In this document: positions 3,169-33,930 of the stretch, one piece after another
How positions within the stretch are numbered: the first letter of the stretch is position 1
Layout of the letters: each line of letters starts with the position of its first letter
Source of the DNA: Bacteroidota bacterium
GTDB taxonomy: Bacteria; Bacteroidota; Bacteroidia; Chitinophagales; UBA10324
Assembly (NCBI GenBank): GCA_014190575.1
Contig: BJGQ01000036.1
Span: 1 to 33,930 of the forward strand
DNA: 33,930 nucleotides
Reading direction: 5' to 3'
Translations under genes and position numbers: made by a program
Notes under the pieces: generated by a model
The model's input: the letters and a program-made list of their open reading frames with translations, nothing else
Told to the model about the DNA's origin: nothing
Databases searched by the model: none

Positions 3169-4431
3169 ATGAACAACATTGAGCTGATTGAATCATTCTC
3201 AGAATTCAAAGAACAAAAAAACATTGACCGCCCAACCATGATGAAGGTGCTGGAAGATGTATTCCGCACGCTTATCCGTAAAAAGCATTTGTCGGATGAA
3301 AACTTCGACATCATTGTGAACACCGAGAAAGGTGATTTGGAAATCTGGCATCGCCGCGAAATTGTTGCCGATGGTGCAGTGGAAGATCCGGTAAAACAAA
3401 TTTCACTTACCGATGCGCAGTTAATTGAGCCTGATTTTCAGGTTGGTGAAGAGGCGATAGAAGAAATCAAGATGGCTTCATTCGGTCGTCGTGCAATTTT
3501 ATCTGCGCGCCAAACTTTGGCCGGTCGTGTTTCTGAATTGGAAAAAGATGAACTCTTTAAAAAATATACTGATCGTGTTGGTGAAATAATCAGTGGTGAA
3601 GTTTATCAGACCTGGAAAAGAGAAACTTTGTTGATTGATGATGAAGGAAACGAATTGATTCTTCCAAAGACCGAACAAATTCCCGCCGACTTTTTTAAGA
3701 AGGGCGATAATGTTCGCGCTGTTTTAAAATCAGTGGAATTAAAAAATAATGCGCCAATGATTATTCTGTCGCGCACCGACCCATCGTTCCTTGCAAAATT
3801 ATTAGAGCAGGAAGTTCCTGAAATTTTTGATGGCTTAATCACCATTAAAAAAATTGTTCGTGAGCCTGGTGAGAGAGCAAAAGTTGCTGTTGAATCTTAT
3901 GATGATCGCATTGACCCGGTTGGTGCTTGTGTGGGAATGAAGGGTTCGCGTATTCACGGTATTGTTCGTGAATTGAAAAATGAAAACATTGATATTATCA
4001 ACTACACCAATAACATTCAGTTGATGATTGCGCGCGCATTAACTCCTGCGAAAATCACTTCAATGGAAATTAATGAAGAGAAAAAAAGTGTGTCGGTTTA
4101 TCTGAAACCCGATCAGGTTTCATTGGCAATTGGTCGCGGTGGTGTGAACATTCGTTTAGCTGGTCGCATTACCGGATTGAGCATTGATGTGTTCCGTGAT
4201 ACAATGGATGAGGATGAAGATTTTGATATTGACTTAGATGAATTTTCAGATGAAATTGAAAGCTGGATCATTGATGAATTAAAAGCAATTGGTTGCGACA
4301 CTGCAAGAAGTGTGTTGGAATTGAATGCCGATGAATTGGTGCGCCGCTCTGATTTAGAAGAAGAAACAGTTAAAGAAGTTATCCGGATTCTGAAAACAGA
4401 ATTTGATGACGAAAAGAAAAAAGCAGAATAA
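3169..4431 (+). CDS. nusA: Transcription termination/antitermination factor NusA
   Basis: The 420-residue product binds RNA polymerase and nascent RNA to control pausing, termination and antitermination. Domains in order: the N-terminal RNAP-binding domain (residues 1-130), an S1 domain (about 130-200, beginning VGEIISGEVYQTWKRETL), KH1 (with GACVGMKGSRI) and KH2 (with VSLAIGRGGVNIRLA). A C-terminal helix-hairpin-helix-like segment (DELKAIGCDTARSVLELNAD) is followed by a charged tail. It lies 17 bases after rimP and nine bases before infB, so all three are one transcript. Since NusA itself promotes intrinsic termination, the hairpin ahead of rimP could give feedback control; that is inference. 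Confidence 0.97.
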   Translation: MNNIELIESFSEFKEQKNIDRPTMMKVLEDVFRTLIRKKHLSDENFDIIVNTEKGDLEIWHRREIVADGAVEDPVKQISLTDAQLIEPDFQVGEEAIEEIKMASFGRRAILSARQTLAGRVSELEKDELFKKYTDRVGEIISGEVYQTWKRETLLIDDEGNELILPKTEQIPADFFKKGDNVRAVLKSVELKNNAPMIILSRTDPSFLAKLLEQEVPEIFDGLITIKKIVREPGERAKVAVESYDDRIDPVGACVGMKGSRIHGIVRELKNENIDIINYTNNIQLMIARALTPAKITSMEINEEKKSVSVYLKPDQVSLAIGRGGVNIRLAGRITGLSIDVFRDTMDEDEDFDIDLDEFSDEIESWIIDELKAIGCDTARSVLELNADELVRRSDLEEETVKEVIRILKTEFDDEKKKAE

Positions 4432-4440
4432 TAAAACTGA

Positions 4441-7400
4441 ATGTCAGAAACAACAACCGGAGAAAAACGGATAGCAGCAGTAGCTCGTGAACTCAATGTG
4501 GGTTTAAATCACCTCATTGATCATTTGAACGCCAAAGGTTTTAAGGTGGAGAATAAACCTACCACCAAAATTACCAATGAGATGTACGAGGCGTTGCTAC
4601 GCGAATTTCAAAAAGATAAAACGGAGAAAATTCAGGCTGATAAAATCAGTCTCGGAATAAAGGCGGCCACTGTTCCGGCAAAAGATAAAACAGAGGAGAA
4701 AGAAGTGCGCGCCGCACAAATTTCGAAAGAGAAAGAAGATCAGGCCGAAGAGGTTTTAATTAAGAATTCTAAAACCGCAACGACAAAACCTGCTGAAAAG
4801 AAAAAAACTGAAGAGCCTGTTGCAGAAAAGAAGGTTGAAAAAGCACCTGAGAAAGTTATTGAGAAACCTGTAGAAAAGGTTGCTGATAAAAAGATAGAGA
4901 AGGTTGCAGAAAAACCAACTGATAAAAAAGCAGAGAAAGTAAATGAAGAAGAGAAGCCTGCAGAAAAAATTATCAAGCGCGGTAAGGCAGATAAAGTTGA
5001 GGGACCAAAAATTATTGGCAAAATAGAATTGCCTGTTGAGTTGCCTCCTGATGATCGTGGAAAGAAAAAAGCTGCTCCGAAAGTTGCTGCTAAAAAAGGA
5101 AAGAAGAAAGAAGAAGCTCCTATTGTTGAAGATGTAAAACCTGTTGAACCTCCGGTTGCAGAATCTCCAAAACCCGAAACTCCACCAACGAAGGAATCTC
5201 CTGCAGAGCCAACAGCAGATACGCCTGATTCTAACACACCTGAAGATCCAAATCAACCCACACGCAAAACACAATTCTCTGTTTTATCGGGTCCTGTAAT
5301 TATGGGCAAAATTGATTTGGGTTCAGTAAAAGATAAGAAGCCTGATTACTCTGATATTATAAAAGGCGACCGCGAAAAACGGAAGCGCAAAAGAATTTAT
5401 AGTTCAGAACAAGGTCCAACGAACAAACCTGCACCAAGTGCAAGTGGAGGTGGAACAGGAACAGCTCCTCCACCAAAACCCGGTGAGCGCCGACCATTCA
5501 CTCCACCAACATCACAACCACCGCGTCGTGATAACAACAGAGGAACCGATAATAACAGAGGTGGAAGCGACAGAGGAAGAAGTGATCGTAACAGAGGTGC
5601 TAAACCACCTGATGTTCCGCAAGAAGTTTCTCAAAAAGAAATTCAGGATAAAATTAAAGCAACACTCTCCCGCCTTGGTCAACATGGAGTGAAAGGTGGC
5701 AAGGGGGCGAAAACAAAATTGCGCAAACTCAAGCGCGAAGTTGCTGCCGAAGAAATGGGGTCAGAAGACGGAGCAAAAAAAATTCAGCTCACCGAATTTA
5801 TTTCTGTTTCTGAATTGGCAAGTTTGCTAAATGTTTCAGTTACTGATGTTATAAAAAATTGTATGAACCTCGGAATCTTCGTTTCCATCAATCAGAGATT
5901 GGATGCCGAGATTATTGAATTGGTGACACACGAGTTTGGGTTTGAAGCTGAGTTCATTGGTGTTGAAGCGCAGGAAGAACAGGAAGAATTTGTGGATGAG
6001 CCTGAAGATTTAAAACCTCGCCCACCTATCGTTACCATCATGGGACATGTGGATCATGGTAAAACTTCGCTCTTGGATTATATCAGAAGTGCGAATGTTG
6101 TAGCAGGAGAAAAAGGTGGAATCACTCAGCACATCGGTGCTTATGAAGTGGAGCTGGCTGATAAAAGAAAAATTACTTTCCTTGATACTCCCGGTCACGA
6201 AGCATTTACTGCCATGCGTGCACGCGGAGCAAAAATTACTGACATCGTGGTTATTGTAATTGCTGCTGATGATAGTGTGATGCCTCAAACAAAGGAAGCA
6301 ATCAGTCACGCGCAAGCTGCTGGTGTTCCAATGATTTTTGCTTTTAATAAAATGGATAAGCCGGGTGCTGATGCTGAAAAAGTGCGCAGCCAGTTGGCTA
6401 ACATGAATATATTAGTTGAAGATTGGGGAGGAAAATTTCAATCGCAGGAAATTTCAGCTAAGTCAGGAACCAATGTTCAATTGTTGTTAGAGAAAATTTT
6501 GATTGAAGCCGATGTATTGGAGCTGAAAGCAAATCCTGATAAGCCAGCAATCGGTTCGGTGATAGAAGCTTCATTGGATAAGGGTCGTGGTTATGTATCA
6601 ACTGTTTTGGTCCAAGAAGGAACACTTCGTCACGGTGATATAATAGTTGCCGGCGCAAATTCAGGAAGAGTGAAGGCGATGTATGATGAGCGTGGAAATA
6701 AAATTACAGTTGCGCCACCCGCTACTCCGGTTTTAGTTTTAGGATTGGATGGTGCGCCGCAAGCCGGTGAAAAAGTTCGTGCGTTCGAAGATGAACAGGA
6801 AGCAAAACAAGTAGCAACCAAGCGCTCACAAATTTTGCGTGAGCAGGGAATCAGAACCAAGAAACATATTACACTTGATGAAATTGGCCGCCGCTTAGCA
6901 TTGGGTAATTTCAAAGAATTGAATGTAATTATCAAAGCCGACTTTGATGGTTCGGTAGAAGCATTGACAGATTCATTACAAAAATTATCAGTTGCCGAAG
7001 TACATGTAAATGTAGTGTATCGTGCAGTTGGGCAAATTACCGAGTCGGATGTGTTGCTTGCTTCTGCATCGGATGCCATCATCATCGGGTTCCAGGTTCG
7101 ACCATCATTACAAGCACGCAAGCTGGCTGAGAAAGAAAATATTGAAATCCGTTTGTACTCCATCATTTACGATGCGATTGAAGAAATCAAGGGCGCAATG
7201 GAGGGAATGCTTGAGCCAAAAGTAGAAGAGCGCGCAGTATGTAATGTTGAGGTGCGCGATGTATTTAAAATTCCGAAAGTGGGTGCTGTGGCCGGATGTT
7301 TTGTAACAGATGGAAAAATTAACCGACACAACAAGATTCACATTGTTCGAGATGGCATCGTGATATTCACGGGAGAACTTGGCTCGCTCAAACGATTTAA

Positions 7401-7524
7401 AGATGATGTGAAAGATGTGGCCACGGGATTTGAGTGTGGCATCACCATCAAAAATTACAACGATATAAAAACCGGTGATGTGATTGAGGGATATGAGGAA
7501 GTGGAAGTGAAGCGGACGCTGTGA
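4441..7524 (+). CDS. infB: Translation initiation factor IF-2
   Basis: The 1027-residue product is the GTPase that brings initiator tRNA to the ribosome. An IF2N-like segment (residues 5-55) is followed by a long low-complexity linker (about 60-400) rich in Lys, Glu, Pro and Val, then Arg/Gly/Asn-rich, a second IF2N-like segment (about 440-500), and the G domain. G1 is GHVDHGKT at about 535-542, G3 is [15 protein letters not shown], and G4 is NKMDKPGAD. Domains II-IV follow to the C-terminus. The long linker accounts for the large size compared with about 890 residues in Escherichia coli. It is the last gene of the rimP-nusA-infB operon and is followed by a good intrinsic terminator. Confidence 0.98.
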
Positions 7525-32561: not shown

Positions 32562-33104
32562 ATGGAAATCTTTTTCAGCTTTTTAATTTTAGGAGTATTT
32601 CTTTTTTTAATCATCGGACTCATTTCACCAAAGACTGGACTTTTCTGGATGAGTGGTGAAAGAACAAGAGGGAAAGCAGGATTGATTTATGGAATTGCTT
32701 TATTAGCATCAATTCTTGCATCGGGAGTTGTTAAGACGAGAACAGAAAAAAAATTGCCTAAAAAACAATTACTCTTCAAAGAGTTTGTTTCATACTATGA
32801 AAAACCTTATTCAAAAAAGGGATATGAAAACTTAAAAGTATTTTACTATGGTTTGTATTTAAATCTGCCAAATGACACAACCGGAATTGCAAATGAAATG
32901 GTTGAATATCTAAAACAGAAGAAATACAATGATGGTGATGTAATACATGTTTGGGTATTTACTGATAGTACAATAATTCCAAAATCATTTTCAGGTGATT
33001 GGTCAACACCAAAAAGCAGAAGTAAATGTTTTGCTCATATTGGTAGACTCAGCAACGGAAATATTTCTTATGATTACGATATGCTTGGAGAATTTAAGAG
33101 GTAA
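32562..33104 (+). CDS. Hypothetical membrane-anchored protein (180 aa)
   Basis: The 180-residue product begins with a hydrophobic helix (MEIFFSFLILGVFLFLIIGL), then a basic loop (GERTRGKAG) and a second hydrophobic segment (LIYGIALLASILASGVV). A soluble alpha/beta domain follows (from about residue 65: KKLPKKQLLFKEFVSYYEKP, then DVIHVWVFTDSTIIPKSF). The charge pattern suggests two membrane helices with the soluble domain on one face. I recognise no domain. It lies between a hairpin and a REP-type element, in accessory-looking DNA. A hairpin with 10-base arms follows 14 bases after its stop. Confidence 0.62.
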   Translation: MEIFFSFLILGVFLFLIIGLISPKTGLFWMSGERTRGKAGLIYGIALLASILASGVVKTRTEKKLPKKQLLFKEFVSYYEKPYSKKGYENLKVFYYGLYLNLPNDTTGIANEMVEYLKQKKYNDGDVIHVWVFTDSTIIPKSFSGDWSTPKSRSKCFAHIGRLSNGNISYDYDMLGEFKR

Positions 33105-33117
33105 AAAAAATTTAATT

Positions 33118-33140
33118 GTGCTCAATTTGCAATTGAGCAC
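33118..33140 (+). terminator. Perfect 10-bp hairpin after the hypothetical membrane protein gene
   Basis: GTGCTCAATT (33118-33127) and AATTGAGCAC (33131-33140) pair perfectly around TGC. The following TTATAAAC is only weakly T-rich, so it may be a terminator or an mRNA end-protector. Confidence 0.55.
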
Positions 33141-33209
33141 TTATAAACTCACGCACTTATTTCAATTCCGTGATATGAATACCGTAACCCAAAGTCAAAA
33201 TCTTTTTAT

Positions 33210-33276
33210 TTCCCGCAGGGAATTAATATTGGTAGAAAAAAAAATACGACAGATTCCTTCGTCCCGTAGGGACGAA
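33210..33276. repeat. Left double-hairpin (REP/REPIN-like) repeat of the transposase
   Basis: The outer hairpin TTCCC-GCA-GGGAA (33210-33222) is followed by AATATTGGTAG and an A-run, then the inner hairpin TTCGTCCC-GTA-GGGACGAA (33258-33276). The whole block is an inverted, diverged copy of 33765-33833. It ends 25 bases before the transposase ATG. Confidence 0.85.
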
Positions 33277-33301
33277 ACCTAACCGAAGAAAACAATTTCT
33301 T

Positions 33302-33763
33302 ATGGCAAATACATTCACGCAAATTCATTTACAATTCATCTTCGCAGTAAAATATCGTGAAGGATTAATCGGTTCTTCATGGAAGAATAATTTATATAAG
33401 TACATAACCGGTATCGTGCAAAATCACAATCACAAAATGCTTGCAATTAATGGAATGGCTGACCATGTTCATCTTCTGATTGGTATGCGACCAACGCAAT
33501 CCATTTCGGAACTCATGCAAGAAGTAAAAGGTGATTCTTCAAAATGGATAAATGAAAATAAATATGTGAGAGGGAGGTTTGAATGGCAGGAAGGATATGG
33601 TGCTTTTTCTTACGGAAAATCTCAGGTGCCGAATGTGATTGCGTACATTCAAAATCAAGAAATACATCATCAGAAAAAAAGTTTTGTTGAGGAGTATATG
33701 GCTTTTATAAAAAAGTTTGAAATTGAGTATGATGAAAAATATATTTTTAAAATGCCGGAATAG
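33302..33763 (+). CDS. REP-associated tyrosine transposase (Y1/IS200-like, RAYT)
   Basis: The 153-residue product is a single-strand HUH transposase of the Y1 type. The metal-binding His-x-His is H55-V56-H57 (GMADHVHLLIGM). The likely catalytic tyrosine is Tyr115 in NVIAYIQNQEIHH. The start TQIHLQFIFAVKYRE is the family's usual first strand. Length (about 150) matches IS200-like transposases and RAYTs, and no tnpB or second gene is present. It is flanked on both sides by inverted double-hairpin repeats, as for RAYT/REP pairs rather than classic IS200. It is complete with no frameshift, so it may be active. Confidence 0.92.
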   Translation: MANTFTQIHLQFIFAVKYREGLIGSSWKNNLYKYITGIVQNHNHKMLAINGMADHVHLLIGMRPTQSISELMQEVKGDSSKWINENKYVRGRFEWQEGYGAFSYGKSQVPNVIAYIQNQEIHHQKKSFVEEYMAFIKKFEIEYDEKYIFKMPE

Positions 33764-33764
33764 T

Positions 33765-33833
33765 TTCGACCCTACGGGACGAATGATGTTGTGATGTTTT
33801 TTTTCTACCGATATTTTGTTCCTAACGGAACAA
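33765..33833. repeat. Right double-hairpin (REP/REPIN-like) repeat of the transposase
   Basis: The inner hairpin TTCGACCC-TAC-GGGACGAA (33765-33783, one mismatch) begins two bases after the transposase stop. A T-run, CTACCGATATT and the outer hairpin TTGTTCC-TAAC-GGAACAA (33816-33833) follow. As the reverse complement, this matches the left block closely in order, spacing and sequence. Confidence 0.85.
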
Positions 33834-33850
33834 TAAAAGTGTATGCGTGT

Positions 33851-33919
33851 GAGCGTGATTTTATTCCTCAGACCAAACCCAATTTTTGAGGTTTGACTTT
33901 GACTGTTACACTGACGCTC
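33851..33919. repeat. Nested inverted repeats near the right edge
   Basis: GAGCGT (33851-33856) pairs with ACGCTC (33914-33919), and CCTCA (33866-33870) with TGAGG (33887-33891). This could be a weak structure or the start of another element, but the window ends here and no gene is visible. Confidence 0.3.
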
Positions 33920-33930
33920 CATCAAAAAAA

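Follow-up and report, generated by a model that had tools for sequence, protein, structure and literature searches.

The stretch analysed here (the window) is an entire contig of 33,930 nucleotides, BJGQ01000036.1 (C36), one of the 91 contigs in the 3.19 Mb draft genome of a Bacteroidota bacterium. Near its right end, at positions 33210-33833, lies an element composed of a Y1 transposase gene bracketed by two blocks in mirror order, each a hairpin, a linker and a second hairpin; the contig stops 97 nt past the right block. The left block (33210-33276, plus strand, 67 nt) opens with the outer hairpin TTCCC-GCA-GGGAA (33210-33222), where homology to the nearest relative, in genome G010, also begins. 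Its linker reads TTAATATT-GGTAG-A9, with the GGTAG box at 33231-33235, separated by 8 nt from the outer hairpin on its 5' side and by 22 nt from the inner hairpin on its 3' side, and after a spacer comes the inner hairpin TTCGTCCC-GTA-GGGACGAA (33258-33276). The transposase open reading frame (ORF; 153 amino acids) occupies 33302-33763 on the same strand. The right block (33765-33833, 69 nt), a unit of the minus strand, starts with the inner hairpin TTCGACCC-TAC-GGGACGAA (33765-33783), which has one A-A mismatch, continues as T8-CTACC-GATATT, where CTACC at 33805-33809 is the GGTAG box of the minus strand, and closes with the outer hairpin TTGTTCC-TAAC-GGAACAA (33816-33833), just past which the G010 homology stops. 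Each end is an inverted copy of a unit of about 66 nt, namely a hairpin, 8-10 nt, a TAG box, an A-run, about 20 nt and a second hairpin.

The original prediction, made from the letters of this DNA, had described inverted double-hairpin blocks around an intact Y1 transposase, and this description is borne out. The alignment of the left block with the reverse-complemented right block scores 32.5, against a mean of -4.1 and a maximum of 13.5 for 2000 Markov-shuffled pairs, and the best competing place in window positions 1-33000, sampled every 5 nt, scores 12.5. The predicted linker, GGTAG plus an A-run with the complement opposite, likewise stands. The blocks, taken to be equally long, are nearly but not exactly so, and the inner hairpins, put at about one base apart, differ by exactly one when one is reverse-complemented, which produces the mismatch of the right copy. 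When folded with RNA parameters, the right inner hairpin reaches -5.7 kcal/mol versus -11.1 for the left. A covariance model, R1, was built from 30 units with 3-nt loops (alignment A2), including the left unit of the window and units from several of the genomes later searched. It matches the left unit, which is partly its own source, at 63.6 bits over 33210-33273, and the right unit, which is absent from the model, at 47.8 bits over 33768-33831. An Rfam search of 32900-33930 returned zero matches up to an E-value of 1.

The ORF between the blocks is open and matches Y1_Tnp (PF01797; E 1.6e-30) as well as the IS200 model NF033573 (83.3 bits, above its cut-off of 55). Its product carries DHVH at residue 54, the HUH motif, and YIQNQEIHH at residue 115. 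The latter follows the pattern Y---Q--HH, present in 81 of 82 aligned proteins, the window protein included. In Quentin et al. 2018 (PMC6006769), Y---Q--HH is the signature of TnpAY1 subclass 1.2, a group characterized there as generally lacking the typical terminal structures of IS200, as 'no' for repetitive extragenic palindromic (REP) sequences, and as not sharing the properties of insertion sequences (IS). By this signature, the window protein belongs to subclass 1.2 and is not a REP-associated tyrosine transposase (RAYT), the identity first proposed for it. A RAYT/TnpAREP (class 2) identity is contradicted by a score of 32.1 bits to the REP-associated model REP_Tyr_transpos, below its cut-off of 80, and by YIQNQ in place of Y---NP; the box, moreover, lies between two hairpins and 8-10 nt from one of them. 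Sequence matches among solved structures are to proteins called transposases (best E 3e-6), and 2xm3 we take to be the structure of the ISDra2 enzyme. Relatives at E <= 1e-20, 40-55% identical, are also carried by two plasmid records.

The element's own genome holds two Y1 genes, a low copy number, and the second is 39% identical to the first; no near-identical second gene is found in it, so that the multi-copy trait of subclass 1.1 is not seen in this genome. Across 23 genomes, there are 1-8 transposase genes each (E <= 1e-10), and their identity to the window protein varies. A different multi-hairpin repeat, CAACCACTTCGTGGTTG ... CTCTGCATTTCATGCAGAG ... AAATCCTTTCAGGATTT, flanks the second Y1 gene of the own genome (C62:360-1370, L018) in direct orientation; at E <= 0.001 this repeat has three copies, every one at the L018 locus.

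Relatives comprise the best 80 of 106 loci from a contig scan, 37-71% identical and many of them in metagenome-assembled genomes (MAGs), plus loci from a further search. By record title they are mostly Bacteroidota, with others from Ignavibacteria, Chlorobiaceae, Fibrobacter, KSB1, Desulfobacterota, Planctomycetes, Acidobacteria and Verrucomicrobia. For the hairpin count, 109 relatives and the window were entered, a plus-strand match was obtained for 97, and the length and flank filters left 85 loci, made up of the window and 84 relatives; under a strict rule, a hairpin had a stem of at least 5 bp with 3 G/C, a loop of 3-6 nt and a position within 150 nt of the gene. Two or more hairpins lie upstream of the gene in 47 of the 85 loci, downstream in 54 and on both sides in 32, where Markov shuffles give 0.8, 1.55 and 0.05, respectively. 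As a further control, distal windows of the same loci contain two hairpins in 6 of 157 cases. At least one hairpin on both sides is present in 57 of the 85, and only three have none on either side. The original prediction had spoken of a Bacteroidota version; it is not limited to that phylum, as record titles place such double-hairpin ends in Ignavibacteria, Fibrobacter, KSB1 and Desulfococcaceae too.

The linker is conserved along with the hairpins. With no selection on TAG, this triplet starts 8-10 nt past the hairpin in 94 of 206 cases on the gene-ward side and in 13 of 206 on the outer side. Selecting for a TAG/GGTA pattern and for hairpins 18-70 nt apart gives 73 units in 52 loci, with a median hairpin-to-hairpin spacing of 37 nt. 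Alignment A1 (63 units) consists of 62 of them plus the right unit of the window, 11 irregular units being excluded, and the way the units were chosen accounts in part for the constant TA of A1 and for the narrow spacing. Within A1, the linker is of the GGTAG type in 30 units, TATAG in 16 and TGTAG in seven. Furthermore, the two ends of an element resemble one another: among the 43 elements in which both linkers are of the TA[AG] type, the left linker and the reverse-complemented right linker share 9.58 of 12 positions when taken from one element and 6.91 when taken from different elements. The observed value exceeds all of 10000 permutations, the highest of which gives 7.81. Linker distance also tracks protein distance (Mantel r 0.54, p 0.0002, n=42).

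Comparison with the nearest relative delimits the element. The G010 protein is 80% identical, its gene holding one internal stop codon. On the left, identity between the window and G010 is 83% at 33210-33239 and drops to 53% and then 33% in the two 30-nt bins that follow, which cover the spacer and the leader; it is 67-90% in the gene and 73% at 33810-33839. Outside the element it is 57% in the 30 nt beyond each end and 13-50% farther out. Because identity falls off outside both ends, the conserved block is the unit-gene-unit stretch. Two additional inverted pairs that lack a gene adjoin the G010 gene.

Units are also dispersed without the transposase. R1 matches (E <= 0.01) were found in 35 of 59 relatives, the own genome excluded, and in all 22 genomes followed under handles, a set that includes the own genome and G010. 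The 20 genomes that were reached through named loci contain from two to at least 150 units each, and 15 of these 20 contain at least 15; these counts are lower bounds, since only the best 150 candidates were scored. Many units accompany few genes. To illustrate, G071 has at least 150 units and one gene, G075 has 82 and one, G016 has 74 and one, and G077 has 123 and three. Transposase (E <= 0.001) and unit tend to occur together in the 59 relatives (both in 26, neither in 17; Fisher p 0.0011).

The arrangement of these copies was followed in 47 stretches, part of which had been chosen for their paired look; four from G016 had been listed with both strands beforehand. There were 112 covariance-model matches, of which six were dropped before pairing, namely five opposite-strand double calls and a 21-nt fragment at L202 that, if kept, adds a seventh pair to nine G079 stretches. 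A unit followed by an inverted unit is the commonest adjacency. It accounts for 31 of the 56 pairs of neighbours lying within 400 nt of each other and is found in 29 of the 47 stretches. Inverted pairs occur in 11 of 20 G016 stretches, themselves part of the matches listed (one of the stretches holds the gene), and in six of nine further G079 stretches, the remaining places among the matches listed. The gap within a pair is specific to the family: 29 or 55-58 nt in G016, 23-26 nt in three Emticicia pairs, and 77-94 nt in ten G079 pairs, with one at 29 nt. In none of the 27 pairs tested is a reading frame open across the pair and 45 nt on each side. At L062, L201, L226 and L236, units stand head-to-tail as well as in inverted pairs.

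The copies in G079, a Fibrobacter MAG, retain parts of the gene. When compared by BLAST with the gene-bearing locus, nine of 14 gene-less copies extend from the left unit into the transposase gene as far as about codon 9, and in eight of these nine the right end comes next, resuming within about 25 nt of the end of the gene; L206 has its two ends the other way round. A tenth copy, L202, retains a shorter gene start. These copies look like core-deleted derivatives of the gene-bearing element, apparently the result of one shared deletion that then spread. At L206 (G079:C11) and L210 (G079:C336), the ends come in reversed order, the right unit before the left, 62 and 121 nt apart; this order resembles a joined-end or tandem junction.

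In light of these features, we read 33210-33833 as one element, a subclass 1.2 Y1 transposase with its two cognate ends, belonging to a system that resembles both REPINs (REP doublets forming hairpins) and miniature inverted-repeat transposable elements (MITEs), and we put the probability of this reading at about 0.78. The REPIN-like character that was originally proposed is supported in relatives, with solitary inverted pairs and from two to at least 150 units against 1-8 genes; in the own draft genome, only a few diverged units were found. How the elements move and where they are cut we infer as follows. The HUH enzyme would bind the folded hairpins on single-stranded DNA, use the TAG box for recognition or for choosing the cut site, and cut and rejoin the DNA near the outer hairpins; the whole element would move rarely, and the gene-less inverted pairs more often. 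TnpAREP is thought to move REPINs in a comparable manner. Because of where it lies with respect to the outer hairpin and because the two ends agree, the TAG box is the best candidate for a guide or cut site. For the IS200/IS605 family, the excerpted PMC8266576 describes a single-stranded DNA substrate and a tetranucleotide 5' of the palindrome that guides the choice of cut site, and suggests that GTAG may be the guide tetranucleotide in REPs.

Several observations weigh against the reading of transposase and units as one system. In the own genome, a BLAST search with the left block finds only the two blocks of the window above noise, and a search with the linker pattern gives one further match (C6), without a double hairpin around it. 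R1 finds four weaker matches there, with E-values from 3.6e-5 to 0.002, and another two with 0.03-0.04: C39:9223-9286 (L176; E 3.6e-5) is a plausible solitary full double-hairpin unit with a TTTATAG linker, C12:32730-32939 (L177, L178, L181) holds a few imperfect units clustered together, of which one has a TTGTAG linker, and in a weak match on C42 no clear unit is visible. The search of this genome for solitary copies, put forward with the original prediction as its check, accordingly yielded no copy of this block or linker. The element is a single, apparently unamplified copy there, accompanied by a small number of diverged units whose linkers are of other types; the absence of further copies is unproven, because draft assemblies lose repeats and this contig ends so soon after the right block. 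No pair of insertion and empty site was seen; a search of 15 other relatives for the gene upstream of the element found no match. Among the 59 relatives, seven have a transposase match with no R1 match, and nine have a unit with no transposase match. The 22 handle genomes had been picked as transposase carriers, and several had supplied units to R1. The strict rule fails to find two hairpins on each side in 53 of the 85 loci; the window is one of these, since its right inner hairpin is mismatched and its right side scores one hairpin only. The repeat runs about 40-100 nt past the outer hairpins in many copies of G079 and in some of G016, which leaves the true ends of the element unsettled. Lastly, in seven stretches of G071 (Desulfococcaceae bacterium HSG9; L191-L197), the pairs sit inside elements of 224-231 nt (CAG to CTG). 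These are MITE-like, with TCAGTAGATC-type ends, TCAGTAGATCGAAAAG terminal inverted repeats and identical 3-nt flanks in seven of eight copies, terminal repeats that the gene-bearing G071 locus, L100, does not have. Since they lie inside elements with foreign terminal repeats and 3-nt flanking duplications, the sampled G071 units were probably spread by another transposase. One mobile element seems to carry another in this genome.

The G071 elements, together with the overrunning repeats of G079 and G016, are what an alternative would lead one to expect in which the units are passive passengers, carried by segmental repeats or by other MITE-type transposons, and the Y1 enzyme just shares ancestry with them or acts in some other way. 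We hold this to be unlikely, as the flanks of three G063 pairs differ when compared by eye, several G079 copies lose BLAST homology within about 30 nt of the outer hairpins, linker and protein co-vary, and gene remnants lie inside the G079 copies. An ordinary IS200/IS605 insertion sequence of subclass 1.1, with subterminal hairpins, would account for the NF033573 score, for the class 1 Y---Q motif and for the solved transposase structures matched by sequence, and the G079 derivatives do imply that whole gene-bearing elements have moved. Yet the ends are mirror-image double hairpins, whereas IS200/IS605 enzymes, in the excerpt of PMC8266576, act strand-specifically with a guide 5' of each palindrome; Y---Q--HH in full marks subclass 1.2; and neither the own genome, with no second near-identical gene, nor the 23 genomes, with their few genes of varied identity to the window protein, look like hosts of such a sequence, which makes this explanation about as improbable as the preceding one. 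Hairpins directly outside a gene on both sides could also be transcription terminators or mRNA-stabilizing structures of the transposase gene. This we consider very improbable indeed: the hairpins stand in mirror order around a conserved unpaired box, the right outer hairpin has no T-run after it, units are dispersed without the gene, and the Rfam search was blank.

As for the surroundings, the neighbouring genes of the window are ordinary, including PaaA (a 1,2-phenylacetyl-CoA epoxidase subunit), NusA and IF-2 (281-1267 and 3169-7524). An 11-mer of the linker, ATATTGGTAGA, recurs at 33037-33047 within the upstream ORF, 189 nt before the copy in the element, perhaps by chance.

Among the closest known systems are the RAYT/TnpAREP REPtrons and the REPINs of Proteobacteria, where a few-copy Y1 gene likewise lies between inverted palindromes and gene-less inverted pairs lie outside reading frames. 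Read from the outside in, GTAG followed by the inner hairpin on the left, with the mirror image on the right, also recalls REP dimers of the HH type with GTAG outside, as far as the excerpted descriptions go. Unlike REPINs, the units have an additional outer hairpin and so place the box between two hairpins at either end of the element, whereas the GTAG of a REP sits at the foot of its hairpin; the REP-type GT[AG]G at the 5' foot is not found in the window, given the 8 and 22 nt that separate its box from the two hairpins. Unlike REPtrons, the protein is of class 1 (Y---Q--HH, not Y---NP), and some gene-less copies retain transposase remnants. By the sequence signature of its enzyme, the system is one of TnpAY1 subclass 1.2 that appears to work in REPIN-like fashion without a RAYT.

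The signature motif, the length of about 150 amino acids, the low copy number and the Bacteroidetes hosts all agree with subclass 1.2 as excerpted from PMC6006769. Unlike the published subclass, reported there to be without REPs and terminal structures, the loci examined here have two or more hairpins on both sides in 32 of 85 cases and at least one in 57, a finding that contradicts that report. Similarities to the IS200/IS605 elements IS608 and ISDra2 and to the haloarchaeal palindrome-associated transposable elements (PATEs; PMC3119063, excerpted) consist of a Y1 HUH enzyme, subterminal palindromes and core-deleted derivatives; PATEs are described in that text as devoid of inverted terminal repeats, unlike the inverted double-hairpin ends seen here. 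CGTC-tagged REPs (Di Nocera et al. 2013, PMC3733652) are dispersed palindromes as well, found also in Bacteroidetes and Chlorobi, and the excerpted account says that they are without a dedicated transposase. Compared by that text description, they have stems of 8-9 bp, loops of 4-5 nt and CCA-type tails, and the units described here, for the most part, are shorter in the stem and have a TAG box at a distance of 8-10 nt. The inner hairpin of the window does carry CGTC, on an 8-bp stem with a 3-nt loop and no CCA tail, and the outer hairpins do not fit the description. The units and the CGTC-tagged REPs may yet be related. In the open-licence literature searched, going by how papers are listed, we found no account of this unit, nor of repeats linked to subclass 1.2.

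Beyond this one locus, we lean towards the broader view that subclass 1.2 transposases serve a large, undescribed REPIN-like family of inverted hairpin-TAG box-hairpin pairs, widespread in Bacteroidota and neighbouring phyla and possibly a middle stage between insertion sequences and REPINs. Such a family would share with insertion sequences a mobile form that carries the gene and gives rise to core-deleted derivatives, and with REPINs a stable gene in low copy number on which many tiny elements depend. If this is true, an enzyme subclass published as being without REPs and IS features would gain a substrate, and hence a testable role, and a likely source would be named for a class of repeats that reaches at least 150 copies per genome. 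REPIN-type biology would then extend beyond class 2 to class 1 enzymes, which bears on how IS200-like enzymes became stable residents of genomes.
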